Shown one piece after another: positions 1,770 to 29,823 of a DNA stretch of 31,057 bases. The notes beneath the pieces were generated by a model. The model ran no database searches and was not told the origin of the DNA. It worked only from the letters and a program-made list of their open reading frames with translations. The position numbers and the translations under genes are program-made. Numbering within the stretch: the stretch's first letter is position 1; every line of letters starts with the position of its first letter. Source of the stretch: a virus; IMG/VR virus record IMGVR_UViG_3300035698_006157, positions 1 to 31,057 of that record. One strand, written 5' to 3'.

Positions 1770-1795
1770 ATTATAGAAATTAAAGTTTTCCCTCT

Positions 1796-2374
1796 TTAAT
1801 CATCTTTAAGATCATCCATTACTAACTTTGATATGAGGTCATCACGATTGCCACTCGATGAAATGTTTCTTTCCTTACACATATCTTTTAGTTCCAACTT
1901 TCTAAAGGAACAGTAATCAACAGGTGCTTTATACTCTTCCTCTGCTTCATCATCCACTTCATTCATCCAATTTTCTTCAACTTCTTCAACTTCTTCCTCA
2001 ACCACTTCCTCTTCTGGTTCAGGAACCACTAGTGCTTGAGGAGGAATACCTTTAGATTCATATTTTGCGAGTGGGTCTTCTCTTGGATCAGGCAAAGGTT
2101 TCTTTTTAATAACAATTTTAGTCTTTGTTTCTTTTATTTTTATAACTTGTTCAACTATCGGTTCTTTACCAGTTATTAATGCTTTTACCTTTAGTGGTTT
2201 CTTAATAATAATTTCACTAATGGTTTCAAATGCAGCATAACCAAGTGTTTTCGTTACTTCGGAGTCTGGAATAGTGAGGTGATCTCCGGGTCGCACAACA
2301 TAACTATATTGCTTTCCACTAGAAATCCAATTTAATCTCTTCTTGCTTGAACCCAAATATTTTAATACTACCAT
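1796..2374 (-). CDS. SAP-domain protein, possible virion protein
   Basis: This is a 192-residue protein. Residues 1-55 form a compact beta-rich start (MVVLKYLGSSKKRLNWIS, then YVVRPGDHLTIPDSEV). Residues about 60-100 are Lys-rich and residues 110-150 are a Glu/Val low-complexity stretch. The last 40 residues match a SAP motif: hydrophobic FRKLELKDMCKERNI, a Ser/Gly turn, then RDDLISKLV. SAP motifs bind DNA in many nuclear and phage proteins. The gene starts one base after the end of the giant acidic protein gene with an AAGGGGAAA ribosome site and is the last gene before a terminator. A structural or DNA-associated role in the head is plausible; the SAP call is good and the role is inferred. 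Confidence 0.7.
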   Translation of the reverse strand: MVVLKYLGSSKKRLNWISSGKQYSYVVRPGDHLTIPDSEVTKTLGYAAFETISEIIIKKPLKVKALITGKEPIVEQVIKIKETKTKIVIKKKPLPDPREDPLAKYESKGIPPQALVVPEPEEEVVEEEVEEVEENWMNEVDDEAEEEYKAPVDYCSFRKLELKDMCKERNISSSGNRDDLISKLVMDDLKDD

Positions 2375-2375
2375 T

Positions 2376-5867: not shown

Positions 5868-5877
5868 TAGATTCCCT

Positions 5878-6792
5878 TTATTTTACGGCTTCTTCGATCA
5901 TTCCCTTTAGCATGGCATCTAGTCCTTTTGCTTCTTCCATCTTCATACCAGTTTTGTCATCTTCGTCCATCTCTTCATCATCTTCATCATCTTCATCACC
6001 ATCGTCAGACTCAAGTTTGAAGTCTGATCCACCATCTACGTCTTCAGGTGGTTCTTCTTCGCCCTCTGGTGCTGGTTCTTCACCTTCTGGTTCTTCTGGA
6101 GCAGGTTCTTCTGGAGCAGGTTCTTCTGGAGCAGGTTCTTCACCTTCTGGATCAATCTCATCTTCAGGCGATTCGTCTGGAACTATTTCAACTGCTGATT
6201 CATCAGTTGATACTGTAAACTTTTTACCTTCTTCTGTTTCGTATTCAGTTGAACTTACCTTGGTAAATTCTGCTTCACCTTCATCGTTAGAAAACTTGAA
6301 CTTAGAACCATCCTCTAGTTCAGCAAATGTTGATGGACCAGCTTCTGCTTCTCCACCTTCAAGATCACCCTCTGGTGCTGGTTCTTCGAGATCACCTTCT
6401 GGTTCTTCGAGATCACCTTCTGGTTCAACGACTTCGCCATCCCCACCTTGATCTTCGGCATCATCAACTTCTTCTGCATCTTCTGCACCGGGTTCACCTT
6501 CTAGTTCTCCGTCTTCTTCGTCGTCTTCTTCGCCATAACCATTTTCTGGATCTGCCTTAGAAGGACCACCACCCATACCCATACCCTTTGGAGGTATATT
6601 AGGGGATGCATCGCCGGGACTACCCTTCTTCCCGGCAGAACTACCCACTTCATAGCCAGATGCTTCCATGAAATCTTTGAGTTCAATTGAATCGAGATCA
6701 AACGATTCCTTGATAGTAGAAACTAAAGATGCCTTGATATCTTCGATCTCTTCACTTAATCTTTGAAGTCTGTTCATAATTGGTTTTAACAT
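5878..6792 (-). CDS. Very acidic low-complexity protein, candidate prohead core/scaffold
   Basis: This is a 304-residue protein. Residues 1-50 are amphipathic helix (MNRLQRLSEEIEDIKASL, then IELKDFMEASGYE). Residues 60-80 are Gly/Pro/Met-rich, and most of the rest is Glu/Asp/Pro repeat (EEPAP and EPEGDL units). A small non-repetitive domain sits at about 150-205 (FAELEDGSKFKFSNDEGEAEF). The end, EAKGLDAMLKGMIEEAVK, is a helix resembling the C-terminus of the giant protein downstream. T4 encodes its prohead core proteins (gp67, gp68, gp22) right after the portal, and those are acidic and helical, so a core or scaffold role is reasonable by position and composition. No sequence match to gp22 is visible. 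Confidence 0.75.
   Translation of the reverse strand: MLKPIMNRLQRLSEEIEDIKASLVSTIKESFDLDSIELKDFMEASGYEVGSSAGKKGSPGDASPNIPPKGMGMGGGPSKADPENGYGEEDDEEDGELEGEPGAEDAEEVDDAEDQGGDGEVVEPEGDLEEPEGDLEEPAPEGDLEGGEAEAGPSTFAELEDGSKFKFSNDEGEAEFTKVSSTEYETEEGKKFTVSTDESAVEIVPDESPEDEIDPEGEEPAPEEPAPEEPAPEEPEGEEPAPEGEEEPPEDVDGGSDFKLESDDGDEDDEDDEEMDEDDKTGMKMEEAKGLDAMLKGMIEEAVK
6055..6150. repeat. 15-bp repeat coding for EEPAP units
   Basis: Several near-identical copies of GGTTCTTCTGGAGCA (plus strand) encode the EEPAPEEPAPEEP run of the 304-residue protein. A second block with a 21-base period at about 6365-6430 encodes EPEGDLEEPEGDLEEP. Both look like slippage expansions. Confidence 0.8.
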
Positions 6793-6794
6793 TT

Positions 6795-7481
6795 TTAATC
6801 CCCTTGTGTGTTTTTATTTAAATTTAAATCGTATTGACCGTGATAAACTGTTTCTCTGTCCAAGTTTCTAATTTCAATTCTCTGTTCGATTTTTCTTCTT
6901 AGAACAGATGCTTCTCCCAAATTTCCATCTACCTTTGCAACAAAATATTCACCTACCCACTCAGCTAAATCTTTATCCTTTAAAGCACCAAGAGATCGTC
7001 TGATTTTAGCAACATCAGTATCATCGTCTTCTATCTCACTCTCATCGGGTTCACCAACTGGTTCTTTTGTTGGTTCGTCTACTGGTTCATCTGGTTCTTC
7101 ATTATCATATCCTATATCTTTTACATCATTATCTTCAATATCATCTTGTTCAGGTTCATCTAAAGTGACATCTGCTTCTGCTATACTTTTCTTCACATTC
7201 TTTGCTTGCTCTTTCTTACTTTTTGCTTCTAACTCTGATGCTTTTGCTGATTGCTCTAATGCTTTTGATTTTGCTTTAGCTACTTTCTTTGGGTCAATAA
7301 CTTCTTCTAAAGGTTTCTTTTTTGATTTCTTTGTAGGTACTTCCATTGGCATCTTCATAACTGCAAAACTTTCCCCACCACCACCATCTTCTAAAAGACA
7401 AGAGATACCTTTAATTAGATTATCACATTCTTCTTTAGCAAGATCTAGTTTTTCGATACTTTTATTCAAACATTTTAACAT
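6795..7481 (-). CDS. Acidic protein with N-terminal LLED motif and module shared with the giant protein
   Basis: This 228-residue protein is not assigned to a family. Residues 1-35 are a helix ending in IKGISCLLEDGGGG, a variant of the shared FLE-type motif. Residues 45-110 are Lys/Ala/Glu-rich and probably coiled. Residues 110-150 are an acidic linker. Residues about 160-222 form a compact module (WVGEYFVAKVDGNLGEASVL, then LDRETVYHGQYD) that aligns with residues about 962-1010 of the 1163-residue protein. The gene follows the portal gene with a 64-base gap holding an ACTAAATA late-type element and has an AAAAGGAAT ribosome site. Its stop is 2 bases before the next start. An internal head role is inferred. 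Confidence 0.75.
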   Translation of the reverse strand: MLKCLNKSIEKLDLAKEECDNLIKGISCLLEDGGGGESFAVMKMPMEVPTKKSKKKPLEEVIDPKKVAKAKSKALEQSAKASELEAKSKKEQAKNVKKSIAEADVTLDEPEQDDIEDNDVKDIGYDNEEPDEPVDEPTKEPVGEPDESEIEDDDTDVAKIRRSLGALKDKDLAEWVGEYFVAKVDGNLGEASVLRRKIEQRIEIRNLDRETVYHGQYDLNLNKNTQGD

Positions 7482-7509
7482 GATTATTCCTTTTAAATTA
7501 CCTATATAT

Positions 7510-7517
7510 TATTTAGT
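7510..7517 (-). promoter_or_regulatory. Late-type promoter element ACTAAATA
   Basis: The minus strand reads ACTAAATA 29 bases before the ATG of the 228-residue gene, in the only sizeable gap between the portal and the genes after it. It could boost expression of the three acidic proteins relative to the portal. Confidence 0.35.
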
Positions 7518-7545
7518 ATCTAAGTGCTAATAGAGGGGACATTTT

Positions 7546-9186
7546 TTATATTTCGATATCTCCTAGACCACCACCTTCTTCCCCATCACCTAAATCACCT
7601 TCATTTCCACCACTCTCGCCACCTTTAGGTTGAGCTGGTGATTGTTCTGCCTTTAACAATTCTTCATTTTCCTTAATCTTATCATCTGACCAATTTAATC
7701 CGTGCTTTAGTGCTGTTTTTCTAGCAAAGATAGGACTATCAACATCTGTATTGTTTACAAAATTAGCAAATCTAGAGAATTGTGCTTCAAGTACTTCACT
7801 ATTCTTCATATATGAGTAGTAGGATGGTGGGACTGCATTAATATCCATATCCTTTTCGGTTAAATGATAGTGATCCCAAATTCCCTTTAGTTTTAAGTGA
7901 GTATAGAAGATCTGTTTAACTGGTCTGACGAATTGTTGTACCATAGAATAGACAAACTTTTCAAATTTGATCTCATCTCTATTCATACCCACATTTTGCT
8001 CTGATGCAGCCTCACCAGTATATCTAGCATATGGTACTTTCATTGATTTGTATAGTTTTTGTACAAAGAATGTAACATCATCAATCTCTCCAAAATTTGT
8101 ATTTTGATCTAGAGTTGTAACATCAGTTCCTCTACCCGAAGCATCTTTAACAAACCAAAAGTCTTCAATAATATTTTTAACGTTTTGAGTTTGATCTACC
8201 TCTCCAGTGTCAGGATTATAAGTCAACTTCTTTCTATACTTATTGATAATCTTCTGTAAGTATTGTTCTGACTTGTTCTTAGGTAGATTACCAGTTGATA
8301 TATTGAATACAAGACGGTTGGGAGCGCGAGACAATCTACTAATAACTAGAGAATCTTCTAGTGCATCTAATTGCTTATAAGGTTTACGAGCATCGTGAAT
8401 AAAACTCTTAGGTAGTCTTAATACATTTGGTCCTGCTGTAACGAACCTTTGGGCATAAGATGGATACACACCTTCAATAAAGTCATATTTACCAGAATCA
8501 ACATAAGCGATTTGTGTTGTATCTGCTAGGATTCTAGTTTCTTGGTTCCACATATTTCTAATGATAAATGCATCTAAGGTTCCATCTGGCAAGTATTTAC
8601 AAACAAATTCTTCTGAATGCATGAACTTGATTTTCTTAACACCATTCTTTTTAATTTTACCATCATCATCATCAATAATAGACTCAAGACCATATTCACC
8701 CATTAGAACAAATTCACGGAACCACTTTAAGAAATTAGTCTTATAATCTAGTACATTTTTAGTAATGTGTTCGAATTCTCTTCGCAGATTCTCTCTGATA
8801 TTCTCATTAACTGCTAGGTTATTGTTCTTGATCTCTAATGTTAATGGTTCTCCACTTTCATCCTCGTTGTAGGCAGAATATACAATTTCATCCAACCCTT
8901 CAGAGACATACGCATTCTGTTCCATTTCTCTATAAAGGGATATTCTATCATCCTTGGATTTTTCAACCATAGCGATCCAAGACATGTAATCGAATGATCC
9001 AAAGGCTCCGTTCCCCATGCCGGAATCCATTTCCTTCTCGGCATAACCTCTTAGATTTTCGAAGTTTACATCATATTCTTGTGGATCGAGTGGATCTGTT
9101 ATGGATTGGACTTTCTCATCTTCGGGTTCGCCATAATTAGATCGGAAGAACCGAAATCTACCTAGATAATCACTAATCGAACTCAT
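7546..9186 (-). CDS. Portal protein, T4 gp20 family
   Basis: This 546-residue protein, close to the usual length of the family (T4 gp20 is 524), forms the dodecameric ring at the head vertex through which DNA is packaged and which the neck and tail join. Diagnostic stretches are LSRAPNRLVFNISTGNLPKN (about residues 285-304), EQYLQKIINKYRKKLTYNPD, IIEDFWFVKDASGRGTDVTT and FVQKLYKSMKVPYARY. Each matches the corresponding T4 gp20 segment (RLARAPERRVFYIDVGNLPK, MLEDFWLPRREGGRGTEITT). The C-terminus is Gly/Glu-rich. The start ATG overlaps the stop of a 47-residue gene in ATGA, so the two are translationally coupled. This is the firmest identification in the window. Confidence 0.97.
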   Translation of the reverse strand: MSSISDYLGRFRFFRSNYGEPEDEKVQSITDPLDPQEYDVNFENLRGYAEKEMDSGMGNGAFGSFDYMSWIAMVEKSKDDRISLYREMEQNAYVSEGLDEIVYSAYNEDESGEPLTLEIKNNNLAVNENIRENLRREFEHITKNVLDYKTNFLKWFREFVLMGEYGLESIIDDDDGKIKKNGVKKIKFMHSEEFVCKYLPDGTLDAFIIRNMWNQETRILADTTQIAYVDSGKYDFIEGVYPSYAQRFVTAGPNVLRLPKSFIHDARKPYKQLDALEDSLVISRLSRAPNRLVFNISTGNLPKNKSEQYLQKIINKYRKKLTYNPDTGEVDQTQNVKNIIEDFWFVKDASGRGTDVTTLDQNTNFGEIDDVTFFVQKLYKSMKVPYARYTGEAASEQNVGMNRDEIKFEKFVYSMVQQFVRPVKQIFYTHLKLKGIWDHYHLTEKDMDINAVPPSYYSYMKNSEVLEAQFSRFANFVNNTDVDSPIFARKTALKHGLNWSDDKIKENEELLKAEQSPAQPKGGESGGNEGDLGDGEEGGGLGDIEI

Positions 9187-9326
9187 CTATTACTCCCTTT
9201 TGTTTTTTCTTTACCGCTTTTTATAAATTGTTCTAATTTCTTAATAGCACTTTGCCATCTCACAATGTCTTCTTTTCTTATATCTAGATCTTGTTCCTTT
9301 AAATTATCTCTCAACTGAACACTCAT
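9183..9326 (-). CDS. Small 47-residue protein coupled to the portal
   Basis: This is a 47-codon gene with an ATG at 9326 and a TGA overlapping the portal start (ATGA). Its own start overlaps the stop of the upstream gene (TAATG), so three genes are chained without gaps. The product (MSVQLRDNLKEQDLDIRKED, then a WQSAIKKLEQFIKSGKEK segment) is highly charged and predicted helical, with no membrane segment or cysteines. No family is recognised. Perfect coupling to both neighbours argues that it is expressed. A portal or prohead assembly accessory role is a guess from position. Confidence 0.7.
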   Translation of the reverse strand: MSVQLRDNLKEQDLDIRKEDIVRWQSAIKKLEQFIKSGKEKTKGSNR

Positions 9327-10009
9327 TACTTTCCCCTGTTAACCACTATTCGATTCCCAGAATATCTATTGTTATTTATAAGTTGAATATATTCTTTATC
9401 AATAAAATAATATTCTCGTGTGTTATTATCTACAGAGTATGAGAAATTCTTAGGATATTTATTGATAATGAATTTAAGATCTGATTCATTGATTGAACCA
9501 TCTCGTTGAAGTGAAGTTCTGATTAGAGTGAAACAATCTGATATGGTTTGTACTTCAGGGGTTCCAGACCAAGGTATATATTGTTTAGGAACTCCAATAG
9601 TAACAACAATAAAAATAGCAGCAGATATCACAATCAAACTTACGACTTTCTTTATTGCTTCTAATTTATATACCTTTATTTCTTTTTTATGTTCTATTTC
9701 CTTATCTTCTCTACTTTGATAATCCTTTTCTAAAACTTCCACTCTATCATTATAAATCGAACTATTTTCCTTTAATGTTTTAGTTACTGAGTCGAGAAGA
9801 CCCACTTCTATTTTAATTGCATCTAATGCCATCTTAAGTGCTTCTTTGTGTCCTTCACATCTAATGCCACCAGAGGCCTTAAACTCTGCATAATTAATCT
9901 CTATATTTTTAAGATTACTTTCCAACTTCTCTATTCTTTCAGGAAGAGTCTCTATTAATCCTATTGTTTTTATGAATAATTCGTTTATGTTGTCGTTTTT
10001 GTTTTCCAC
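9326..10009 (-). CDS. Single-span membrane protein with long coiled coil
   Basis: This 227-residue protein starts with GTG at 10009, chosen because an AAGGA ribosome site lies just upstream and the start overlaps the previous stop (TAGTG). Residues about 5-45 and 65-120 are charged heptad-like helices. One membrane helix follows at about 122-142 (KKVVSLIVISAAIFIVVTIG). The last 85 residues are polar, including an EF-hand-like or helical stretch ending IVVNRGK. No family is recognised. A membrane protein between a tail-tube-like gene and the portal is unusual and could be a lysis, superinfection-exclusion or virion membrane-contact protein; the sequence does not decide. Confidence 0.8.
   Translation of the reverse strand: MENKNDNINELFIKTIGLIETLPERIEKLESNLKNIEINYAEFKASGGIRCEGHKEALKMALDAIKIEVGLLDSVTKTLKENSSIYNDRVEVLEKDYQSREDKEIEHKKEIKVYKLEAIKKVVSLIVISAAIFIVVTIGVPKQYIPWSGTPEVQTISDCFTLIRTSLQRDGSINESDLKFIINKYPKNFSYSVDNNTREYYFIDKEYIQLINNNRYSGNRIVVNRGK
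9373..9380 (-). promoter_or_regulatory. Possible intragenic late promoter TATAAATA
   Basis: A perfect T4 late consensus octamer on the minus strand lies inside the membrane-protein gene, 47 bases before the 47-residue gene and portal. In AT-rich DNA this may be chance. Confidence 0.3.
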
Positions 10010-10767
10010 TAAAGAATCCTTGTATTGTTCGTAATCGCATCCCCAAGAACAAACTGTGATATATCCATATCTGTTACCTTAAATGTACATTCAAAATCTA
10101 TTTCATCCGGAGAGTCAACGGCAAGACTAAGACCGGGGATCTGATCAATGATGATCTTATAACCAATCTTTCTACTAGTATCTTCATTCGCATTTAAGAA
10201 CTCAACAATAAACAAAGACTCTAATGCTTTTTGTGGTCTGTCTTTTGGTTCCTCTTGCTCAATTTGTTGATTAGAAAGACCTGTAGACCAATCCCATTTT
10301 AGGAACTGCCAATTCAACAGGGAACAATAGTTATTCAAATACCTATCTAATTTAAATCTTATACTAACGGTTCCTAGTTCTCCATCCCCAACACCGGGAT
10401 ACTGACTATTCTGCATTCCAAAGTAAGGAACAGGGATCATTGGAACGTTAAACTCAGGTAAAGAGATTCCACGAATTGCTTCATTAAGTCTATCTTGATA
10501 ATAGGATCTTAGTCTAAAGTGTGTCTCATCCGCATAGTAACCAGTTTGGGGTACATTAATAAACTGCCCCATGAATTGATTACCAAAATAAGGATTAGTA
10601 ATACTCTCTACAGGAGTATCATAAATCTGATTTTGTTCTGGTTGCTCTGATGGTGGAATCTTATTCTGAGCAACATTGATAACCTTGTCGGGACTCCTAT
10701 GGTTATTAGCTGGATCATTCCTGTCTTCGAGCTCAGGCATCGTTTCCCCTAAGATATTTTCTTTCAA
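10009..10767 (-). CDS. Tail-tube-fold protein (tube or tube-initiator type)
   Basis: This is a 252-residue protein. The first 75 residues are polar and Pro/Asn-rich. From about residue 130 the pattern fits the T4 gp19 / gp54 tube fold: VSIRFKLDRYLNNYCSLLNW, then FIVEFLNANEDTSRKIGYKI, and PGLSLAVDSPDEIDFECTF. These correspond to the strand-helix-strand core that stacks hexameric rings in contractile tails. A 252-residue length is larger than gp19 (163), so a tube-initiator or a head-proximal tube terminator is possible. It is the first gene of the head operon behind two TATAAATA elements. I am fairly confident of a tail-tube-related protein but not of its exact place. Confidence 0.6.
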   Translation of the reverse strand: MKENILGETMPELEDRNDPANNHRSPDKVINVAQNKIPPSEQPEQNQIYDTPVESITNPYFGNQFMGQFINVPQTGYYADETHFRLRSYYQDRLNEAIRGISLPEFNVPMIPVPYFGMQNSQYPGVGDGELGTVSIRFKLDRYLNNYCSLLNWQFLKWDWSTGLSNQQIEQEEPKDRPQKALESLFIVEFLNANEDTSRKIGYKIIIDQIPGLSLAVDSPDEIDFECTFKVTDMDISQFVLGDAITNNTRIL

Positions 10768-10806
10768 ATACTTATAAATTTATTTTAATAAGATGTATTA
10801 CATACA

Positions 10807-10814
10807 TATTTATA
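10807..10814 (-). promoter_or_regulatory. T4-late-consensus promoter TATAAATA (operon head)
   Basis: An exact TATAAATA on the minus strand, 40 bases before the first gene of the portal operon, in a divergent intergenic region. It is the best-placed late promoter in the window. Confidence 0.6.
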
Positions 10815-10860
10815 ACTACTAGGAAATAAAAAGTATAAAAAAGAACCAATCTTGTACGAT

Positions 10861-10868
10861 TATTTATA
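10861..10868 (-). promoter_or_regulatory. Second TATAAATA element, minus strand
   Basis: A second exact TATAAATA on the minus strand, 54 bases upstream of the first. It could be an alternative start for the same operon. Confidence 0.4.
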
Positions 10869-10886
10869 AAATATGAAGACTCCTAT

Positions 10887-10894
10887 CATAAATA
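10887..10894 (+). promoter_or_regulatory. CATAAATA element ahead of the amidoligase gene
   Basis: CATAAATA on the plus strand lies 47 bases before the amidoligase-like gene. The leader between them contains the ribosome site CAGGGAG. No sigma-70 pair is visible here, so late control is likely. Confidence 0.4.
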
Positions 10895-10941
10895 TTGTGA
10901 TATATTTGATCTGCATCTCAGGGAGTACATAGGTTGATTAT

Positions 10942-11706
10942 ATGTACAAAGGCAAAAGACGATTTGGTGTAGAGTTGGAATACGATTGCAGTTTTTCTGA
11001 TTTCAAACCTATAGCAAAAGAAATTATACAAGAAGTGTATGGTTCCGATTCCTGCTATTGTAGGGATGATAGATTCGATTCTACGTTTAAGTTAAGTAAA
11101 TGGCATATCAAGATAGAGAATTCATCTGTATCTGAGTTAACCACACCTATTTCTGTATTAGCAGATATACCAAAAATATGTAAAGTACTTAGAGGATTAA
11201 GAAAGAAGTTAATCAAGGGTGATCCTGCGGATTGTGGGATGCATGTTCATATAGATATACCAGACATCAATGAATACGAATGGTGTATCTTCTGGATGAT
11301 ATACGAAAAAGCAATACTATCTTGCTTCCCCGAAGAGAGAAGACATAATATATTTTGTACGAGAATAATTGATAAAGATAGAAAAGGAAAGAAGATACCT
11401 AGTTTATTGAAAGAATGCGTTGTTGCAGACAAAGAGATATTCAGTCTACATGATTACAAGAAAAGGAAAACGGTAGAGATAAGACTAGCAGAATCAACTG
11501 TTGATGCTGATTTCCTTTCATCGTGGGTTAAATTTCTTTTATCTTATTGTCAATATATCAAAACCCTAAACCCATACCTATCTTGTAATGAAAAGAGTTG
11601 CGATACCACCACACCAGAATTACTAGAAAAAATGACCTTGGATAATAAATCCAAGGCCATTATGATGAATCGATATCACAAATTCATAAGAGTTAAATAT
11701 TGGTAA
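10942..11706 (+). CDS. Amidoligase-family (COOH-NH2 ligase) enzyme
   Basis: This 254-residue protein matches the Amidoligase_2 pattern of ATP-dependent carboxylate-amine ligases related to glutamine synthetase and gamma-glutamyl-cysteine ligase. It has FGVELEYD at residues 8-15 (metal-binding Glu pair). KIENSSVSELTTP at 57-69 is the substrate-region Glu. CGMHVHIDI at 98-106 carries the signature His residues. VEIRLAESTVDADFLSSWV near 188-206 is the Arg/Glu plus Trp segment. Family members in phages and mobile elements are predicted to form peptide or protein amide bonds, and their substrates are mostly unknown. The gene stands alone on the plus strand between two minus-strand operons; its stop abuts the convergent neighbour's stop. 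The substrate cannot be read from the sequence. Confidence 0.75.
   Translation: MYKGKRRFGVELEYDCSFSDFKPIAKEIIQEVYGSDSCYCRDDRFDSTFKLSKWHIKIENSSVSELTTPISVLADIPKICKVLRGLRKKLIKGDPADCGMHVHIDIPDINEYEWCIFWMIYEKAILSCFPEERRHNIFCTRIIDKDRKGKKIPSLLKECVVADKEIFSLHDYKKRKTVEIRLAESTVDADFLSSWVKFLLSYCQYIKTLNPYLSCNEKSCDTTTPELLEKMTLDNKSKAIMMNRYHKFIRVKYW
11634..11658 (+). other. Strong hairpin near the end of the amidoligase gene
   Basis: CCTTGGAT and ATCCAAGG form a perfect 8-bp stem with a four-base loop inside the coding sequence. There is no U-tract after it on either strand, so it is not a classical terminator. It might slow convergent transcription or protect mRNA ends. Confidence 0.4.
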
Positions 11707-12750
11707 TTACTTACTCATAGTCCTCTTGACGATTTGTTCTACCAGCTTGTCTGCTTTTGACACTTCTTTAACTTCTTCTGCTGCGACCTTTGGTGGAACT
11801 ATAGATGGTTTGGGTTTAAATTCTGGTTTCTTTGCTTCTACTGGTTTCTCTTCTGGTTCTTCGCCTTCTGGTTTTTGACCTTGTGATAAAATTTTGATTA
11901 CTTTCTTAACATTAACAATCTGTTTATTTGATATATTATTCAATAGACTAACAATTACTTCTGATACGCCTGTCTGTAGTTGTTCACTACCTTGTAACAT
12001 TGCGTATGCTTTAGGGTTGATGTACCTAATACCCTTAAGAAGATTGGTAACTGCTACCTTGGTTTTTTCTACTGCGGCCTTATCTCTTCTATCTAACATT
12101 GCCTGTGCTTTATCACCCGCACGATTCTGACCACTTGCGGCCGCATCTTTAACGTTTTCAATACCCGCTCTGCTCTTTTCGTAAGCACTCTTCACCCCGT
12201 CAATGAACCCACTCCACGCACCTTCTTCAAAATCCTCAAGATCATCCTCACCTTCAGCAACACTAGATCTAGCAGATGTTGGTGTTACTCCTAGTTCTCC
12301 ACTTCGATTTGATAGATTTCTTCCAGCAAACTGTCTTTCGTGCCGCGCATCATTTCTATCACCCAATTCCCGTTTAGGTTCAAATTTAGGTGTTTCTTCT
12401 TGTCCTTTATCCATATCCACTTCAGACTCTGCTCTATTCAAGTCTTGGTCATTAAACTTTCCCTTTGCTCGTTTTAAGAATGCAACACGAACACTTTTAA
12501 GATCATTATCACTCATCTTTAGTTCATGTTTGTATCTTCCATACCAACCTTTATATCGTTCTAATGCTGCATCTTTCTCTTCAGAATCGAATTTTTCATT
12601 TAATAACGTTTCATTCAAACTTGCTATAGGATCGGTTTCTTCAGGAACATGTGGTGTCATTTCCTCATCGTACTCTTCTTTTAGGATCTCTTCGAATATA
12701 GAGATACCTGATACTAATTCTTCTTTTAATAAATCTTTACGTTCTTCCAT
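11707..12750 (-). CDS. Unidentified charged protein, candidate internal head protein
   Basis: This is a 347-residue protein. The N-terminus (KDLLKEELVSGISIFEEILK) carries a variant of the shared N-terminal motif. Residues about 45-110 are helical (ERYKGWYGRYKHELKMSDND). Residues 110-175 are disordered and mixed-charge. Residues about 180-285 are Ala/Lys-rich helices with a hydrophobic stretch (VSEVIVSLLNNISNKQIV). The rest is a Pro/Lys/Glu tail. No family is recognised. It has its own late-type promoter (TATAAATA at 12807), directly opposed to the tape-measure gene's promoter, and ends against the amidoligase gene. It could be an internal or tail-associated virion protein. Confidence 0.7.
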   Translation of the reverse strand: MEERKDLLKEELVSGISIFEEILKEEYDEEMTPHVPEETDPIASLNETLLNEKFDSEEKDAALERYKGWYGRYKHELKMSDNDLKSVRVAFLKRAKGKFNDQDLNRAESEVDMDKGQEETPKFEPKRELGDRNDARHERQFAGRNLSNRSGELGVTPTSARSSVAEGEDDLEDFEEGAWSGFIDGVKSAYEKSRAGIENVKDAAASGQNRAGDKAQAMLDRRDKAAVEKTKVAVTNLLKGIRYINPKAYAMLQGSEQLQTGVSEVIVSLLNNISNKQIVNVKKVIKILSQGQKPEGEEPEEKPVEAKKPEFKPKPSIVPPKVAAEEVKEVSKADKLVEQIVKRTMSK

Positions 12751-12861: not shown

Positions 12862-15126
12862 ATGGCAGAAGAAGAACTTAAGACTAATGGATTTGAATCT
12901 ATTCTTGAAAGATTTAAAAAGAAAGAAAGAATAGAAGATACAGAAAAGGACGATTCAAAAGTCCAAAGACCTACCAAAAAAGCAGAGAAAGCAGATTCCT
13001 CTACCCCACCAGAATCCGAGAAAAGTGATATATTTGGAAGTATGGGTGTTGGAGCAGATGGAGCAGCCGGAGGCGTTGCTGGTATATTTGGCGGCATGTT
13101 GGGTGGTGGTAAAGATTTTGCTAAGTCTGATGCCTTTAAGATGTTGACCGATAAGAAGTCTCAGAAATACGCACTTAATGTTAGAATCGTATCAGATCAA
13201 TTTATGGAAATGACAACTGGGGAAGAAGTAGTAGAAGAAAAAGAAAGTGGTGGGATTTGGGGATTCATTAAGAAAGCAGCAGGTTTGCTTTTGCTTGGTG
13301 GTGCTGGATTAACGATATTCAAAATGTTGGGAGTAGATAGTCTTGCTGAGGCTGGGCAATTGGCCGTAGGGAAAGTTACTGAACTATTCAACTATCTTGG
13401 TTCTGATGAATTTAAAGCTAGTTTGTGGTCAACTTGGGAATCGATAGATAAATGGTTTGATGATTTTGCAGCGAACCTAAAAGATGATTTGAAAGGGATT
13501 TACGAATGGGCAGGGAAATTTTGGGATGAGAATGAAGATACCTTTATAATGGTCGGAGAAACATTCTTGTCGATCTTTGAAGGTATAGGTAATTTTATAA
13601 AAGATAATCCATTATTGAGTATACTTATTGGTGGTGGAGTGATCGCTGGTGGTGGGATTCTTGCTACCATTTTGCCTGTCTTAACGGTTGCCTTGGGTCT
13701 TTTTAGTGGTATTCTGACTATTATAACGACTGTTGCTGGAGCCATTGGTACTCTCATTGGTGGTATTGGTACTGTTCTTGGTGGATTAGTAACGGTAGTT
13801 GGGACTTCCATTGGTGCAGTAATTGCTCCTCTTATTGTAATTGGAGTATCTCTTTATTCTCTCTATACACAATTAGACAGTATCATTTATCTCGCCAGTG
13901 AATATTGGAAAGATATGAAAGAGTATATATCTGGTCTATGGAATGATATGACCAATCTCGCTGGTGACTTTTTGAATAGTGTAGTATCCTTCTTCTCAGA
14001 CGCTGTTGATTCATATATTGCTATGTGGACTTCGGTTGGAGAAACAATTTGGGATGTGGTTAGTTCTATTGGTGAGTGGTTTTCTGGAATCGGGGAAACG
14101 ATCTGGGATTCCATTAGTGGTTTTGGTGAAATGATCACTGGTGTCTTTAGTGGTGCAATTGATGGTATAATTGGTTTGGTAAAGAAAATACCGGGTGTGG
14201 GGATGCTCTTGGATGGTGCTGGAGTTGTGGGTGATGCTGTTAGTGGTGCTTGGAATTCCTTATGGGGTGGAGATGAAAAACCAGAATCAAAAATAGAGAA
14301 TGTTGAGAGGGTTGCAGAGAAGAGTTCAGTAGATCTAGCAAGAAAAGATATAACTCAAGAACAACTTCCATTAATTAGTAAAACTATGTATGAAAATGAT
14401 ATTGCAAGAAAAGAAAAACAGAAAGAAAAAGAAGTAATTGGATCAGAAATGATTTCAAAAATGAAAGGACTAAAAGATGAGTATGATTCTACAGATGATC
14501 CTGCCAAGAAAAAAGAACTCGAACGACAAGCAATGCTTTTACAGTTCGTGATGGACGCGAAAGTAGATGCGTCCGAATATCAACGTGAGTTAAAAAAGAA
14601 GTTTGATTCTACAGATGATCTTGATGAGAAAGCAGAGTACACACAGAAGGCAATGGATGTAGATACTCATATGCTGGCCTTGGAAAAGAAATATCTCGAA
14701 AAAAGTAAATCGGATGCAGATCTATCCAAGTCTTTAGATGATAATTCATCAGAGTTATCAAAGGTTAATAAATCTACATCAGAGTTATCAAAAGTTAATA
14801 AAGAGGCCGAGTTATCAAAAGTTGATCCTCTCACAGCAGAGTTAATGAGAGCAAAAGAGAATGATCCATTTGCTATGCTCGATGGAGTAATAAACGGAAT
14901 TACAGGATCAATAGAAAAGATGAACTCAGGTAAGGGTCTTTTGGGTGATATTGTTAAGACTATGGATTCGCAAGCAAAGTCAGTTAGTAGTCAAGCAGGA
15001 GCAATGATGGCAACCTCAGCTGGTACTCCTGCTATCAGATCAAGACCGGGAGACGATGCATCAATGAAAGCATTATCGAGTTCTTTCCAATCTTCTGTCT
15101 TGAGTAAAACAATTGGTATGTCTTAG
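12862..15126 (+). CDS. Probable tail tape measure protein
   Basis: This is a 754-residue protein. The N-terminal 50 residues are charged (NGFESILERFKKKERIED), followed by Gly/Ala-rich sequence. The middle (about residues 125-470) is strongly hydrophobic, with several membrane-like helices and a Gly-rich block (about 250-330). Trp-spaced repeats of the type GETIWDVVSSIGEWFSGIGE follow. The C-terminal third is charged and helical, with two KxxYDSTDD/KKKFDSTDD repeats and three ELSKVNK repeats. Hydrophobic centre, Trp/Gly periodicity and long helices are usual for tape measures, which set tail length and help DNA cross the inner membrane. It heads the plus-strand tail block and is followed by tube-cap and baseplate-like genes. 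The call is from architecture and position, not a specific motif. Confidence 0.6.
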   Translation: MAEEELKTNGFESILERFKKKERIEDTEKDDSKVQRPTKKAEKADSSTPPESEKSDIFGSMGVGADGAAGGVAGIFGGMLGGGKDFAKSDAFKMLTDKKSQKYALNVRIVSDQFMEMTTGEEVVEEKESGGIWGFIKKAAGLLLLGGAGLTIFKMLGVDSLAEAGQLAVGKVTELFNYLGSDEFKASLWSTWESIDKWFDDFAANLKDDLKGIYEWAGKFWDENEDTFIMVGETFLSIFEGIGNFIKDNPLLSILIGGGVIAGGGILATILPVLTVALGLFSGILTIITTVAGAIGTLIGGIGTVLGGLVTVVGTSIGAVIAPLIVIGVSLYSLYTQLDSIIYLASEYWKDMKEYISGLWNDMTNLAGDFLNSVVSFFSDAVDSYIAMWTSVGETIWDVVSSIGEWFSGIGETIWDSISGFGEMITGVFSGAIDGIIGLVKKIPGVGMLLDGAGVVGDAVSGAWNSLWGGDEKPESKIENVERVAEKSSVDLARKDITQEQLPLISKTMYENDIARKEKQKEKEVIGSEMISKMKGLKDEYDSTDDPAKKKELERQAMLLQFVMDAKVDASEYQRELKKKFDSTDDLDEKAEYTQKAMDVDTHMLALEKKYLEKSKSDADLSKSLDDNSSELSKVNKSTSELSKVNKEAELSKVDPLTAELMRAKENDPFAMLDGVINGITGSIEKMNSGKGLLGDIVKTMDSQAKSVSSQAGAMMATSAGTPAIRSRPGDDASMKALSSSFQSSVLSKTIGMS

Positions 15127-16428: not shown

Positions 16429-16547
16429 ATTTCTCTTGACATCGAATTCTTAATATGTATAATCTATTTCAATAGGCTTTAGCCATCTGAAGTGAATGCT
16501 ATGTTAAAAGCTATAGCTCGTCGATAATTCGAACTCAGGGAGATAAT
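16429..16547 (+). other. Intergenic leader with short palindromes
   Basis: This gap holds a sigma-70 promoter (16436-16463) and a transcribed leader of about 75 bases. The leader contains GGCTTTAGCC and AGCTATAGCT palindromes, then the ribosome site CAGGGAG. The last part (CTCAGGGAG) is the same as in the amidoligase leader. No tRNA or known riboswitch is recognised. Confidence 0.5.
16436..16463 (+). promoter_or_regulatory. Sigma-70-like promoter, start of accessory region
   Basis: TTGACA (16436-16441), 16-base spacer, TATAAT (16458-16463). Both hexamers are perfect. It should be read by unmodified host RNA polymerase and so be active early. Confidence 0.85.
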
Positions 16548-17119: not shown

Positions 17120-17153
17120 ATAACCTCTTGAATATCAAGGGGTTATCTTTTTT
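17120..17153 (+). terminator. Rho-independent terminator after the macro-domain gene
   Basis: ATAACCTCTTGA pairs with TCAAGGGGTTAT (one G-U pair), followed by CTTTTTTTAT. It makes the macro-domain gene a single-gene unit. Confidence 0.85.
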
Positions 17154-17162
17154 ATATTTATG

Positions 17163-17190
17163 TTGACTTTTTGTATTTTTGTGGTATAAT
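17163..17190 (+). promoter_or_regulatory. Sigma-70-like promoter before the phosphoesterase gene
   Basis: TTGACT (17163-17168), 16-base spacer, TATAAT (17185-17190). The core TTTTGTGGTATAATATA is identical to that of the two promoters at 30428 and 30675. Confidence 0.85.
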
Positions 17191-20182: not shown

Positions 20183-20210
20183 TTGACTTCTGAGTTATTT
20201 ATGATATAAT
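20183..20210 (+). promoter_or_regulatory. Sigma-70-like promoter for the SWIM/nuclease unit
   Basis: TTGACT (20183-20188), 16-base spacer, TATAAT (20205-20210) followed by ATA. It drives the genes from 20251 on. A minus-strand late-type element lies inside its spacer. Confidence 0.85.
20196..20203 (-). promoter_or_regulatory. Late-type element CATAAATA ahead of the HAD gene
   Basis: The minus strand reads CATAAATA, 58 bases before the HAD start, inside the spacer of the divergent sigma-70 promoter. Early and late transcription would therefore compete for the same DNA. Confidence 0.4.
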
Positions 20211-20250
20211 ATACTTATTAAATAAAAGTTTTTGATCTTTGGAGAAAATA

Positions 20251-20472
20251 ATGAATGATTTAATTGAAGCATTGACAATCCTTAGCAAGTATGGTAATCC
20301 ATCGAATCCCACTCACTGTGAACACGATGTTTTAATGATTCATCCAGACATTAAACCAAGTTCTGTATCAGATGGAGATAAAGAAAGACTTGAACAATTA
20401 GGATTTTTTGTGTCTGGACATGAGATGATTCCCGATGAGCATTTTCAATCTTTTAAATTTGGGAGCTGCTAA
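20251..20472 (+). CDS. Small conserved phage protein of unknown function
   Basis: 73 residues from the ATG at 20251. An upstream in-frame TTG is less likely because the ribosome site TTTGGAGAA sits just before the ATG. The text PTHCEHDVLMIHPDI, then DKERLEQLGFF and FQSFKFGSC, is a recurring pattern in small proteins of many phages, with conserved HCEHD and a terminal FGS(C). The function is unknown. The stop overlaps the next start (TAATG), so it is coupled to the SWIM-finger gene. Confidence 0.7.
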   Translation: MNDLIEALTILSKYGNPSNPTHCEHDVLMIHPDIKPSSVSDGDKERLEQLGFFVSGHEMIPDEHFQSFKFGSC

Positions 20473-20813
20473 TGGATTTTGATTCTATTGAAGTATATTG
20501 TAATCCGTGCGTAATGAAAGTCCCAACTGGATCTTATGTTGTTGGTTGTACTCCTTGGGTTGAGTATACTGAAGAGAACTTCCAAAAGATCAAAAAGATT
20601 TGGGACGATAAGATGGATGCTTTTAATAAGAAAAACGCATCTAAGAATTCATTTAAGATTGAAGTAATTACTAGCAACTCTGATCCAACAAAGGCGTATA
20701 AGGTGAAGGTGTTTGAAGACGGTAGATTCGAATGTGATTGCAAAGGATTTCTTTATAGAAAATCTTGCAGCCACGTTGACAAGATTAAGGAGAAAAAATG
20801 TCTGGAAAAGTAG
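20472..20813 (+). CDS. SWIM zinc-finger protein
   Basis: This is a 113-residue protein. The C-terminal half holds a SWIM finger: CDC (residues 88-90), GFLYRKS, then C99-S-H101, matching C-x-C-x(n)-C-x-H. SWIM domains bind DNA or protein. The N-terminal half is strand-rich and unrecognised (YCNPCVMKVPTGSYVVGCTP). It overlaps the start of the PD-(D/E)XK nuclease gene by 16 bases, so it may act with that nuclease. Confidence 0.8.
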   Translation: MDFDSIEVYCNPCVMKVPTGSYVVGCTPWVEYTEENFQKIKKIWDDKMDAFNKKNASKNSFKIEVITSNSDPTKAYKVKVFEDGRFECDCKGFLYRKSCSHVDKIKEKKCLEK

Positions 20814-21562
20814 TGACTGTATCAAATCCTTTAGGGTTTAAGATAACGTTTAGTGAAGACAAGCATACTTATGAGGATGAGAGTGGTGCAATCTATCGTT
20901 CTGTTACGAAGATCATCCATAATTTATTCCCTGCATTTGAGAGGGATAAGATTGCCGGATTCTGTGCTAAGAGTCGTGGGTGTACAAGACAAGAAGTTAT
21001 TGATGAATGGTCAGAGACAGGAAGAATTGCTTGTGATCTAGGTAACATTGTTCACTATTATGCAGAGTGTTACTTCACCGGTGCAAAATTTGATCAAACT
21101 CCTAGAACCGAGGCCGAAACTACAAGGTTGAAAGTCATCCACGACTTCCTACCTAAACTATTAGATCGTTATGAGTTTGTAGATACAGAGAAGATTGTAT
21201 TTTCTCCTAAGTGTTTGCTTGCTGGAACTGTTGATCTTATCATGCGTAACAAGAATACTGGTAAACTCTGCATCTTTGATTGGAAAACGAATAAAGCGAT
21301 TAACAAGAAGGATAAGTATAACAAGTACGGTAAGTTGTTCCTCTCTAATCTTGACAACTGTAACTACAATCATTATGCTTTACAGTTGAATACTTATCGT
21401 TACTTGATGCACATGGAAGGTTATGATGATTTTGGTGAATGTGAATTAGCATTATTCCATGTTACTGATGATGGTGTAATTGGTTATCCTCTCCCAGACA
21501 TGACTGATATGGTTAAGTTAATTGTCGATTATGTGATTCAAACTAAGGGTGATATCTGGTAA
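20798..21562 (+). CDS. PD-(D/E)XK nuclease, RecB/Cas4-like
   Basis: This 254-residue protein carries the RecB-type nuclease core. It has GNIVHYYAE (82-90, His and Glu of the first helix), an E131 before the strand, GTVDLI (143-148, catalytic Asp146) and FDWKTNK (160-166, D161 and K163). LQLNTYRYLMHME follows as the conserved QxxxY helix. Such enzymes degrade DNA as single- or double-strand exonucleases. In phages they serve recombination, host DNA breakdown or replication. The ribosome site AAGGAGAAAA lies in the SWIM gene. There is no terminator directly after it. Confidence 0.88.
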   Translation: MSGKVVTVSNPLGFKITFSEDKHTYEDESGAIYRSVTKIIHNLFPAFERDKIAGFCAKSRGCTRQEVIDEWSETGRIACDLGNIVHYYAECYFTGAKFDQTPRTEAETTRLKVIHDFLPKLLDRYEFVDTEKIVFSPKCLLAGTVDLIMRNKNTGKLCIFDWKTNKAINKKDKYNKYGKLFLSNLDNCNYNHYALQLNTYRYLMHMEGYDDFGECELALFHVTDDGVIGYPLPDMTDMVKLIVDYVIQTKGDIW

Positions 21563-21616
21563 CATACAAGTTAAAGTAAATTTTGTTACGTCTATAAATT
21601 AAGAGAGGGTTGATCG

Positions 21617-22372
21617 ATGCGAGGAAAGATCTTTAGTATATTGTTATTTGTTATTCTTATATTTCTCGTTGGGATATTGACGTTGAATGTAATCAAATGC
21701 ACTAGAGTAATCATTGACATAGAGAACATTAATCAAGAAGAGTTGTGTATTAATAGACATCTCAAATATCTTGAACCTATCTCACATTCAGAAAAAGATG
21801 GAGAGATTCAATTAAATCCAGATGAGTTTGACAACGATTCTTATCTTCCTGTTTATAGATTACTTACTCCAACTGGTGGGGGTACTTGTTTCTTTATACG
21901 ATACAAGATGAAAGTATATTTAGTAACTGCATCTCACGTTATAGGTGGTGCTAAAGAGATTACTGTACCAACAGCAGGTATCTTCAAGTTACATAAACCA
22001 AGAACTCTTCATGACTGTACAATTATTCCCGTCGATGGGTACAAGGCCGCCGCATTTAAACTTCATACACCAATAGAACAACCACCCCGATTAGGGAATA
22101 TAACAAAGAAGATCATATCTATGACATCATATGGTTATCCTTCTGGATATAATCAACAGAAATCAGAGGGAATTATTAGTCAATCAATGGGTCGTGGTGA
22201 TGATTGGATTTTAATTTCAAGTGCAAAGAGCAAGAGTGGGTTTAGTGGATCGCCTTGGATATGCGATGGTAAAGTGATTGGTATTCATAGTTCGACTATT
22301 GATACTGGTGATACAAAAGGATCAGGTGGAGTTCCGGTTAATACTATTTGGAAACTTTTAGAGGAGAAATAG
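21617..22372 (+). CDS. Membrane-anchored trypsin-like (V8-type) serine protease
   Basis: This is a 251-residue protein. Residues 5-25 form one membrane anchor (IFSILLFVILIFLVGILTLN), probably leaving the enzyme outside the inner membrane. The protease domain has TASHV (His107), an Asp at HDCTI (133) and KSGFSGSPW (Ser210 in G-x-SGSP), in chymotrypsin-fold order, with a GKVIGIHSS strand after it. The catalytic triad appears complete. Phage-encoded secreted proteases of this kind are rare outside prophages. It follows the nuclease gene by 54 bases, with GAGAGGG as ribosome site. Likely targets are unknown; a role in modifying the host envelope is possible. Confidence 0.85.
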   Translation: MRGKIFSILLFVILIFLVGILTLNVIKCTRVIIDIENINQEELCINRHLKYLEPISHSEKDGEIQLNPDEFDNDSYLPVYRLLTPTGGGTCFFIRYKMKVYLVTASHVIGGAKEITVPTAGIFKLHKPRTLHDCTIIPVDGYKAAAFKLHTPIEQPPRLGNITKKIISMTSYGYPSGYNQQKSEGIISQSMGRGDDWILISSAKSKSGFSGSPWICDGKVIGIHSSTIDTGDTKGSGGVPVNTIWKLLEEK

Positions 22373-22374
22373 AT

Positions 22375-22866
22375 ATGAGTAAATTTAGTGATAAACTTAA
22401 AAATGTACATAATGAATCATGCGCGTCTGTGGAAGAAACAATGGATAATCTTCGGTGCAATATCGCACATCGTAAAGAAAATGAGTTGGATATTCTTGCG
22501 CAACTTGAAGCACATGGCGTTCTTACGGGTAGTAGAGTATTCTTAGGTAAGGATGATCCCGAAACCGATTATGATTATGTTGTAACTCCTGTACTCTTCT
22601 CAGAAATCTTTGAAGTATTCCGTGCTAGAGAAATATCAGGTACATTGAATTATAAAGGTGGTCTGAAGTTAACTCTTGATGGTAAGTCTGTTGATGTTTG
22701 GCCAGTACAAAACCCCTCAGTAGTCAAGGTGGTTAATAAGATGATGACAATGATGCAGGAAGATCATAATATCTTATCTGCGAATGGTAAGAGTTGGTAT
22801 GTTAAATTTTATAGTATTGTTAATACTTTGTTAGAAGATTGTACGATGACCTCGAAGGAATTATAA
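22375..22866 (+). CDS. Nucleotidyltransferase-fold protein
   Basis: 163 residues from the ATG at 22375 (ribosome site GAGGAGA), two bases after the protease stop. GSRVFLGKDDPETDYDYVV (52-70) is the NTase signature: the GS followed by D-x-D. DVWPV (107-111) supplies the third Asp. The region before it is a helical arm. Members add nucleotides to RNA, DNA, proteins or small molecules, or act as toxins or antitoxins; this one has no visible partner. It is unrelated in detail to the minus-strand NTase at 24593. Confidence 0.75.
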   Translation: MSKFSDKLKNVHNESCASVEETMDNLRCNIAHRKENELDILAQLEAHGVLTGSRVFLGKDDPETDYDYVVTPVLFSEIFEVFRAREISGTLNYKGGLKLTLDGKSVDVWPVQNPSVVKVVNKMMTMMQEDHNILSANGKSWYVKFYSIVNTLLEDCTMTSKEL

Positions 22867-22867
22867 T

Positions 22868-23080
22868 ATGTATTATTCAATATGTGATGCTTGTGGTAAG
22901 AGAATTATTGATCATGATGGTGAGTATGGTATATTCATCTGTCTTGAGAAATCAGCAGAGAAGATTAAACAACTCAAGACTGCTATGATGGATTCAATCA
23001 ATAGACCAATGGGTGTGGTTCCCGATTCTGCATTACCATTTTATAAGAATACCGTTGAATCTAATAAAGGAGAAGAATGA
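22868..23080 (+). CDS. Small CxxC protein
   Basis: 70 residues beginning MYYSICDACGKRI, with a CxxC and a third Cys at about residue 25. The remainder is helical (EKSAEKIKQLKTAMMDSINR). It starts one base after the previous stop and overlaps the next start by 4 bases (ATGA). No family is recognised. Confidence 0.6.
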   Translation: MYYSICDACGKRIIDHDGEYGIFICLEKSAEKIKQLKTAMMDSINRPMGVVPDSALPFYKNTVESNKGEE

Positions 23081-23265
23081 TGAAAATGGGATATGAAATT
23101 ACTGGTGGTTCACATTACCCAATCAAGACCGAAGGTAGAGTTAGTAAGTCTACTTGGGAATCTTGTGCAAGGGAAGCAATGAAGTTACACCGCGAAGAAC
23201 TCAGAGAGATGGGAAAGATTCGTAGACAAGGTGATAACATTACTATTAAGTTACGGAAACTCTAG
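23077..23265 (+). CDS. Small basic protein
   Basis: A 62-residue product (MMKMGYEITGGSHYPIKTEG, then TWESCAREAMKLHREELREM) with a Lys/Arg-rich end. Either ATG at 23077 or 23080 could be used, with AAAGGAGAAG as ribosome site. It is coupled to the preceding gene. No family is recognised. Confidence 0.6.
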   Translation: MMKMGYEITGGSHYPIKTEGRVSKSTWESCAREAMKLHREELREMGKIRRQGDNITIKLRKL

Positions 23266-27879: not shown

Positions 27880-29823
27880 CTAGTGAATGAGTAGTAAAGT
27901 ATTATTAACTTCTGGACGAGTAGCAGCATCATCACCGTGACCTGCCCAGACTAAAACATTCCAGTAATTCTTTTTACCTAAGAATTCATCATTCTTTTCC
28001 TTAATCATATCCATCATTTCAGGATAAGAGATAAGTGTTTCGCGATCTATTTTCAAATATTTGGCAGTTCTATCCTTCAACACTCCAACATCCTTAGGAT
28101 CACTAAGGTCAAGAACACTTCCTGCATACTCTGGGAAGTCTGCCTTATCTCTCTTACTCTTATTCTTGAATAGACCAGCAGGGATTACATCTGATTTCTT
28201 ATCACCACCGATGTCTGCGTCTTGCGTACCACCTGTACTGAAACTAACTACAAAGTTTTCTGGAAGATCTCTATTCTGTAGGTCAGATACCTGCTTGGTG
28301 TATGCATAGTGAAGAACATCGGGAGTCTCATTAACAACCTCAAGTACGAGATCAGTGTATGCTTCATTAAAGAAGTCACCAGAGTCATGCCAACGAAGAA
28401 CCATTTGCATATCCTTCTTTGCCAACTTTGCTGATGTTACCTTGATTTCATCTACTAGTTGTTGCTTGAACTCTTCTGGATGATTCAAGAGATAGTTGAG
28501 TACTGAACCTGTTAGGATTGATGGAGAAGGGAACATAATATATCCACCCTTGATAGCATAGCAGAACCTCTTACATTTATCTGCGGATGGACAGGTTCTT
28601 ACAAGTTTGAACTCTTTGTCTGCTTCATCATACCATAGACCATGATAGGCAGGAAGTCCATAGTTAAAGAAGACTTTATTATCTTCACCAGACTTTTTAA
28701 TCTTAGCATTTTGTTTAAGTAATTCTTTAGGTTTCTGAGTTAGGATACTAATTAACTTTGAAATATCCCACTCTTCGTTATTTTCATCAACCAAACCCTT
28801 GACTGTAGAATTATGAATAAGTCTTTGAGTCTGTTCAGCGTTAGCAATACCTTTTCTCTTAGCTTTAAGATCTGTAGGATCAATAGTCTTATAGTTTACA
28901 TTACGAAGTGCTGCTGCTGCGTCAATTTCATCTACCTGTTCAAGTTCTTCAAGAAAGTTGTCGAGGACATCGAATCCTTTTTCCTCCTTTGTTAGTTCTG
29001 ATGGAGGTGCGGGAAGTTCATCAAGAGCATCATCAAGAGAACCCATAGCAAAGTCATCAATCATATCATTAGCACCCTTTGCTTCTTCTAGTTCTTCTTC
29101 ATCGACTTCTTTTTTTTTAAAGGTAGGTGTTGGGTCTTCATCTGCTACTCCACCAGTTTCGCATCCACATTCATCTTCATTATATTTTATATCACCTTTA
29201 TCTTTAGGATCTCTTTCATTATTTTTCCAACCAGAATCAGAACTCTTCCAATCGATTCCTCTATCTTCGGATTCTTTACGAGCCATTAGAATTTGAAACC
29301 TTTGATTACCACCTGATTTATTTTCATCTGCTTGAGCTAGATGTACAACAAAATTATCACCAAAGTCTTTTAGTTGTTCGATAACTTCTTCTTTTGTTTT
29401 TCCATACATAAATTTTCTAAATGAATTAGAGTCTACCGTATTCTTAAACTTTTGATATATCTTTTCAAGAACCCCCTCTTCATCAATTTTTTCTTCTGGT
29501 GGACAATTAGGACCATTAGGCCCTCTAGGACCAGAACCATCTCGTGGACGACCACCTCTACCTCTATCGGTGATCTTGACTTCCCCATCCTCTTCTTCAA
29601 TCTCTTCATCATCCCCTTCATCATCTTTCTTCTTGCCTTGTTTCTTTTTGATAGCATCTTGTAGAGCTTGAGGAAGTTTTTCTATCCCCTCATCGATCTT
29701 CTTAATCTCTGCTTCTTCTCCAGTGGGATTTTGTTCTACTTCTTCGAGAAAACCAAGAAGACCATCACTAACATATTTCTCTTCGTCGAGACTCTTGTAC
29801 ATTTTCTTAAACGGGCTTCGCAT
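27880..29823 (-). CDS. Large protein with two FLEE motifs and a C-terminal GP88-like domain
   Basis: This is a 647-residue protein. The N-terminus has the shared motif (SDGLLGFLEEVEQN, about 18-32). Acidic and Gly/Pro linkers follow, then a small domain at about 100-200 and a Cys-bearing acidic stretch (EDECGCETGG). A second copy of the motif (VLDNFLEELEQ) is at about 286-296. From residue about 372 it matches the phage 'gene product 88' type: CPSADKCKRFCYA (411-422) with three Cys, then RWHDSGDFF (477-485) and HYAYTKQ. That family is common in actinophages and other phages and its activity is unknown to me. It is the first gene of the cluster, behind a TCTAAATA element. The motif pair suggests processing that frees the GP88 part. 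Confidence 0.75.
   Translation of the reverse strand: MRSPFKKMYKSLDEEKYVSDGLLGFLEEVEQNPTGEEAEIKKIDEGIEKLPQALQDAIKKKQGKKKDDEGDDEEIEEEDGEVKITDRGRGGRPRDGSGPRGPNGPNCPPEEKIDEEGVLEKIYQKFKNTVDSNSFRKFMYGKTKEEVIEQLKDFGDNFVVHLAQADENKSGGNQRFQILMARKESEDRGIDWKSSDSGWKNNERDPKDKGDIKYNEDECGCETGGVADEDPTPTFKKKEVDEEELEEAKGANDMIDDFAMGSLDDALDELPAPPSELTKEEKGFDVLDNFLEELEQVDEIDAAAALRNVNYKTIDPTDLKAKRKGIANAEQTQRLIHNSTVKGLVDENNEEWDISKLISILTQKPKELLKQNAKIKKSGEDNKVFFNYGLPAYHGLWYDEADKEFKLVRTCPSADKCKRFCYAIKGGYIMFPSPSILTGSVLNYLLNHPEEFKQQLVDEIKVTSAKLAKKDMQMVLRWHDSGDFFNEAYTDLVLEVVNETPDVLHYAYTKQVSDLQNRDLPENFVVSFSTGGTQDADIGGDKKSDVIPAGLFKNKSKRDKADFPEYAGSVLDLSDPKDVGVLKDRTAKYLKIDRETLISYPEMMDMIKEKNDEFLGKKNYWNVLVWAGHGDDAATRPEVNNTLLLIH

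Follow-up and report, generated by a model that had tools for sequence, protein, structure and literature searches.

A probable membrane-anchored, PDZ-less trypsin-like protease in an early-type gene cluster of a divergent T4-like phage

The protease gene, its cluster and its phage

The DNA analyzed was the virus record IMGVR_UViG_3300035698_006157 at its full length of 31,057 nucleotides, a 31-kb genome fragment referred to here as the window. Positions 21617-22372 of the plus strand hold a real protease gene, as observed in an earlier note on this DNA. The open frame of 251 codons compares with a longest stop-free run of 163 in 20 shuffled windows, and the strand opposite 21617-22372 was found to carry stops throughout in the open reading frame check. 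The features of the gene and its cluster are the following.

20183..20210, plus strand: near-consensus extended sigma-70 promoter TTGACT-16-TATAAT, 11/12 matches, TG before the -10 element; heads the cluster
20239..21562, plus strand: three upstream cluster genes, for proteins of 77 aa and 113 aa and a 254-aa exonuclease, phrog_298 (ORFs, PHROG match)
21603..21609, plus strand: ribosome-binding site GAGAGGG, 7 nt 5' of the ATG (read from sequence)
21617..22372, plus strand: protease gene, 251 aa, ATG to TAG (ORF listing; Pfam PF13365, 4e-10)
21629..21697, plus strand: N-terminal membrane span, residues 5-27, uncleaved-anchor type (KD 3.17; AF2 helix, pLDDT about 85-94)
21698..21871, plus strand: linker, residues 28-85, of low model confidence (pLDDT 44-59 over most of it)
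21872..22363, plus strand: trypsin-like protease domain, residues 86-249, nothing after it (Pfam, profile scores, AF2)
21935..21937, plus strand: catalytic His107 in TASHV (posterior 1.0)
22013..22015, plus strand: probable catalytic Asp133 in HDCTII (posteriors 0.58/0.95/0.99; spacing)
22043..22045, plus strand: Lys143 in GYKAAAFKL, rival for the Asp position (MAFFT with many HtrA rows)
22244..22246, plus strand: catalytic Ser210 in GFSGSP, with oxyanion-hole Gly208 (posterior 0.998-1.0)
22375..23265, plus strand: three small downstream genes, the first 2 nt after the protease stop and likely coupled (ORFs)

Since the downstream gene starts only 2 nt past its stop codon, the protease gene was taken to be part of the plus-strand cluster 20239-23265. 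Sigma-70 sites matching at least 11/12 positions were found four times on the plus strand (16436, 17163, 18225 and 20183), all among small non-structural genes, and twice on the minus strand, both within genes. The six sites in the window compare with a chance expectation of 1.85; the maximum in 100 shuffles was also 6, and the promoter evidence is therefore suggestive and not proof. Within that limit, the early-type promoter at 20183, upstream of the cluster, supports the early-region expression proposed in the earlier note and suggests that the protease is expressed early from it. A late-promoter-like word, TATAAATt, at 21593-21600 counts against early expression. Late-promoter words (TATAAATA) were no more frequent in the window than expected by chance. 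The promoters at 16436-16463 (12/12), 17163-17190 (11/12) and 20183-20210 (11/12) each precede plus-strand runs of small genes, and a terminator-like hairpin at 17120-17146 stands before the second of them.

The assignment to a T4-like phage was borne out by the portal protein (phrog_213, 9e-83). The portal was about 30% identical to those of cultured phages and 59% identical to that of an uncultured contig, L009, and by sequence the source is a very divergent T4-like lineage. No protease counterpart was seen on L009, the nearest phage contig, which is too short to reach that locus. Between the portal and the neck gene, window positions 928-9186 and L009 encode mostly very acidic proteins without a PHROG match. 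Elsewhere in the window, an Amidoligase_2 gene (PF12224, 7e-13) occupies 10942-11706 on the plus strand, surrounded by head and tail genes of the minus strand. Positions 12862-15126 encode a protein of 754 aa with matches to tape-measure families, in the orientation opposite to that of the head genes, and positions 27880-29823 encode a GP88-domain protein (PF17338, 1e-31) whose N-terminus is extended by a long acidic stretch.

The membrane anchor and its orientation

The single N-terminal span described earlier was confirmed as the sole hydrophobic stretch of the protease, residues 5-27, with a mean KD of 3.17 across residues 5-23. AF2 modelled it as a helix of pLDDT about 85-94, also when no relatives were aligned. 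Neither an AxA site nor a lipobox was present in the N-terminus as read from the sequence, VIKC being found there. The lack of a lipobox and of a clear signal-peptidase site makes the span look like an uncleaved anchor. The charges flanking it, +2 and 0, favour a topology with the N-terminus inside without forcing it. We infer that the protease domain likely lies on the periplasmic side, as the earlier note had it, because of the positive N-terminal flank and of relatives of the secreted type; this placement is supported, not proven.

Protease domain, catalytic residues and fold

Trypsin_2 (PF13365) matched residues 89-223 over profile positions 1-144 of 144, with 41 bits against a cut-off of 27.6, and the protease scored 46-59 bits against diverse trypsin/HtrA profiles. 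No PDZ domain was found by Pfam, and the protein ends at residue 251, right behind the protease domain. In profile alignments, His107 and Ser210 are certain as the catalytic His and Ser. The position of the catalytic Asp varied with the alignment. Asp133 occupied the Asp column in alignment with the phage relative L091 and in some pairwise comparisons, several MAFFT alignments, including those with all HtrA rows, placed Lys143 there, and several pairwise alignments placed Lys143 or Ala144 there. With random row sets the column held sometimes Asp133 and sometimes Lys143. A split-fragment alignment was designed to avoid bias around the Asp, but MAFFT misaligned it and it was left out.

Because the alignments disagreed, forward-backward posteriors were computed on three profiles, the query being left out of each. 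The posterior of Asp133 was 0.58 in the HtrA-only profile, 0.945 in the diverse profile and 0.994 in the non-HtrA profile, which included phage proteins. The His-Asp and Asp-Ser spacings of relatives, excluding three rows in which an incorrect Ser or His motif had been paired, were 25-32 and 69-86 (25/73 in L091 and 25/75 in L110, a second phage relative). The spacing through Asp133 is 26/77, in line with these relatives, and that through Lys143 is 36/67, outside all those measured. On posteriors and spacing, Asp133 is probably the catalytic Asp, with a small but real chance that it is not. By the posteriors, the random-row alignments and the spacing, a replacement of the Asp by Lys143 is less likely. 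Of the full His-Asp-Ser set named in the earlier note, TASHV and GFSGSPW are thus certain, and HDCTI is the best-supported Asp motif, with some doubt left.

The same alignments bear on whether the protein is an enzyme at all. With Lys143 at the Asp position, it could be a dead or weak trypsin-fold protein that acts by binding, for instance by sequestration of a periplasmic protein or by blocking a receptor. Such a reading draws on the Lys143 or Ala144 placements in MAFFT with many HtrA domains and in pairwise alignments, and on the modest posterior of Asp133 in the HtrA-only profile. It was judged unlikely: the two other profiles gave Asp133 0.95-0.99, the Lys143 spacing has no parallel among the relatives, and an inactive protein would not be expected to keep, as this one does, an intact His, Ser and GxSGS oxyanion motif. 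The protein is probably an active protease, though activity is supported and not proven.

An AF2 model was built from a 16-row alignment, with rows mostly from HtrA and chosen in the Asp133 register. The model had a pLDDT of 67, a pTM of 0.56 and a strand order consistent with a trypsin fold; from the single sequence, the pLDDT was 37. Foldseek with the AF2 model matched 311 PDB chains at E<=0.001. The best matches were of the HtrA/Deg type, with Deg1, DegP and DegS-deltaPDZ at the top (E 3e-7 to 2e-6, probability 1.00), followed by MarP and then V8/Spl. V8 ranked 49th, and V8 and Spl were only slightly worse than HtrA in this HtrA-built model. Owing to its HtrA-rich rows and Asp133 register, the model cannot count as independent support for Asp133, and it does not compare HtrA and V8 on equal terms. 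The Trypsin_2 profile over its full length, the His and Ser motifs and the double beta-barrel model agree in placing the protease in the chymotrypsin-fold clan PA, and the trypsin-like fold proposed earlier is upheld.

Single-sequence phmmer against PDB gave one chain only, the Thermotoga maritima HtrA protease domain 1l1j (E 0.014). Other single-sequence matches were weak (HtrA, phrog_11383 and the PADLOC model LmuA). In NCBIfam only NF053637 (HtrA) was matched (8e-4, 18 of 650 bits), and no DegS model rose above its cut-off. By sequence and model, the protease appears nearer to HtrA/Deg/MarP than to V8, with the HtrA-rich alignment biasing the fold ranking. The comparison with DegS and V8 folds suggested in the earlier note hence gave a trypsin-type fold with DegS-deltaPDZ among the best matches of this HtrA-rich model, and the label "V8-type" found no support over HtrA. 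V8 and other glutamyl endopeptidases (S1B) share the fold, V8 and Spl being within the first 50 fold matches, and the His of a GIH motif at residues 222-224 presumably recalls V8-type S1 pockets. V8-type enzymes are secreted with propeptides and have no membrane anchor.

Relatives and a possible role in the host envelope

A tblastn search of 50,697 phage records gave no close homologue, nor did scans of viral and genome contigs with the single sequence, or scans with L091 alone or paired with the window protease (P0001). Genomes of two bacterial classes (289 and 274) gave weak matches only, which scored as HtrA-type domains. Four distant phage relatives were identified. L091, of 215 aa, is encoded on a T7-like contig, flanked by genes for a T7-type primase-helicase and for DNA polymerase A; L092 is a full HtrA with PDZ on a contig with T4-type polymerase and tail fibres; L110, of 235 aa, is a trypsin-like protein of the jumbo Brevundimonas phage Bambus, directly upstream of the portal gene; and L111, of 240 aa, is a trypsin-like protein of Sinorhizobium phage AP-16-3. 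In all four the N-terminus is hydrophobic, of the kind seen in signal sequences or anchors; in L091 it is below the usual membrane-span threshold. The survey of homologues thus yielded no close one; the distant relatives keep the trypsin-like domain, L111 with Glu at the Asp position. The latter, annotated as "hypothetical protein" (3809-4531), is a trypsin-like protease with its Glu in TKTEIAIL. With L091, L110 and L111, matches were also obtained to PADLOC RT-Protease_XI models, in the protease region at the C-terminal end of these models (3e-15 to 1e-9), which connects trypsin-like domains of phages with those of defence systems.

Given these distant relatives, secreted trypsin-like proteases encoded by phages belong to a kind already known. 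A literature search for phage-encoded periplasmic trypsin-like proteases returned nothing usable. Among 50 further contigs and 5 genomes that have a T4-type portal, a trypsin-like domain was present in 0/55 records, a weak negative because most contigs are short fragments; it supports the earlier remark that such a protease is unusual in a T4-like phage. The protease is uncommon among T4-like phages and has no close relatives, yet it does not represent a new type of system. Judged by its sequence, it is probably an isolated new member of a phage enzyme type already known. Among PHROG families of phage trypsin/HtrA-like proteases, phrog_9683 (protease) was not matched in the PHROG search, and phrog_11383 was matched at 2e-4 over residues 60-120 only. 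The latter is listed as of unknown function and is HtrA-type through its match to L092.

The position of L110 recalls a prohead maturation protease in place of T4 gp21, which would act in the cytoplasm on a membrane-assembled prohead. T4 builds its proheads at the inner membrane. Unlike the T4 order, no gp21 protease or gp23 capsid gene adjoining the portal was recognisable in window positions 928-9186 or in L009; the PHROG search recognised no gp21-like (S77) gene beside the window portal, and none stands out in L009. This role is very improbable for the window protease, given its membrane anchor, its early-type cluster on the strand opposite the head genes, and the hydrophobic signal-type N-termini of its relatives, L110 included. 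Furthermore, a gp21 gene may lie outside the window, which is a fragment. The protease itself matched Trypsin_2 and not the S77 family (Pfam, PHROG).

With DegS, the membrane-anchored periplasmic stress sensor of E. coli, the protease shares an N-terminal inner-membrane anchor and an HtrA-fold protease; it differs in having no PDZ, with 27% identity over 143 columns. The HtrA/Deg family (S1C) requires one or two C-terminal PDZ domains, of which the window protease has none and L092 has a PDZ_2. Thermotoga HtrA 1l1j, the best PDB match of the two-phage P0001-L091 profile (1.5e-9), is only distantly similar in sequence, and derives from a PDZ-containing protease. MarP (Rv3671c), a periplasmic serine protease of mycobacteria, is like the window protease PDZ-less, membrane-linked and trypsin-like, and either the phage profile or the AF2 model found its structures 3k6y, 3k6z and 3lt3. 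L091 and L110 have their top NCBIfam scores on the MarP family, far under its cut-off. MarP has four membrane spans, in contrast to the one of the window protease, which has no MarP-family match of its own.

L092 positions 5818-12430 hold a phage protein quality-control cluster of HtrA with PDZ, glutaredoxin-like, DnaJ-like, peptide-deformylase-like and Clp-type ATPase genes. An analogous envelope quality control, with DegP/DegQ-like removal of misfolded envelope proteins keeping the cell intact until lysis, could be considered for the window protease as well: HtrA/Deg are its nearest families, and the genuine HtrA of the T4-like contig L092 sits near the DnaJ-like, Clp-type ATPase and deformylase-like genes just named. 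This is rather unlikely for a protein with no PDZ or other substrate-gathering domain and with a permanent anchor, which soluble DegP-type proteases lack.

The explanation preferred here, with moderate confidence, is an inner-membrane-tethered PDZ-less protease that processes host envelope proteins during infection. Against it stand the ambiguous Asp column in direct alignments, the AF2 model, which has a mean pLDDT of 67 and is not independent, and the lack of a close homologue showing triad conservation. The protein would be a type-II inner-membrane protein, its short positive N-terminus kept in the cytoplasm, one helix crossing the inner membrane, and the chymotrypsin/HtrA-fold domain held in the periplasm by ~60 residues of flexible linker, with His107, Asp133 and Ser210 as the putative catalytic site. 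DegS is gated through its PDZ. As the window protease has none, unlike DegS or DegP, gating by unfolded outer-membrane protein tails would not apply, and activity may be constitutive or governed only by its own loops. From early infection onward, one or a few host envelope proteins may be cleaved to the benefit of the phage, candidates being a membrane-bound regulator (an anti-sigma factor, for example), a receptor or other protein of the cell surface, and misfolded proteins. The roles proposed in the earlier note, modification of receptors, a block to superinfection and action on stress sensors, are hypothetical. A narrower version, a "DegS without its brake" in which an early, anchored, PDZ-less HtrA-type protease constitutively cleaves a host anti-sigma factor or stress sensor, is improbable; if true, such a mimic would reprogramme host envelope transcription in favour of the phage.

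Phages send many small early proteins into the host cytoplasm, and early phage enzymes placed in the periplasm are poorly known. Together with its relatives, scattered over T7-like, T4-like and jumbo phages, the window protease suggests repeated uptake of envelope-facing proteolysis by phages, and these proteins form a defined set for substrate finding by N-terminomics.
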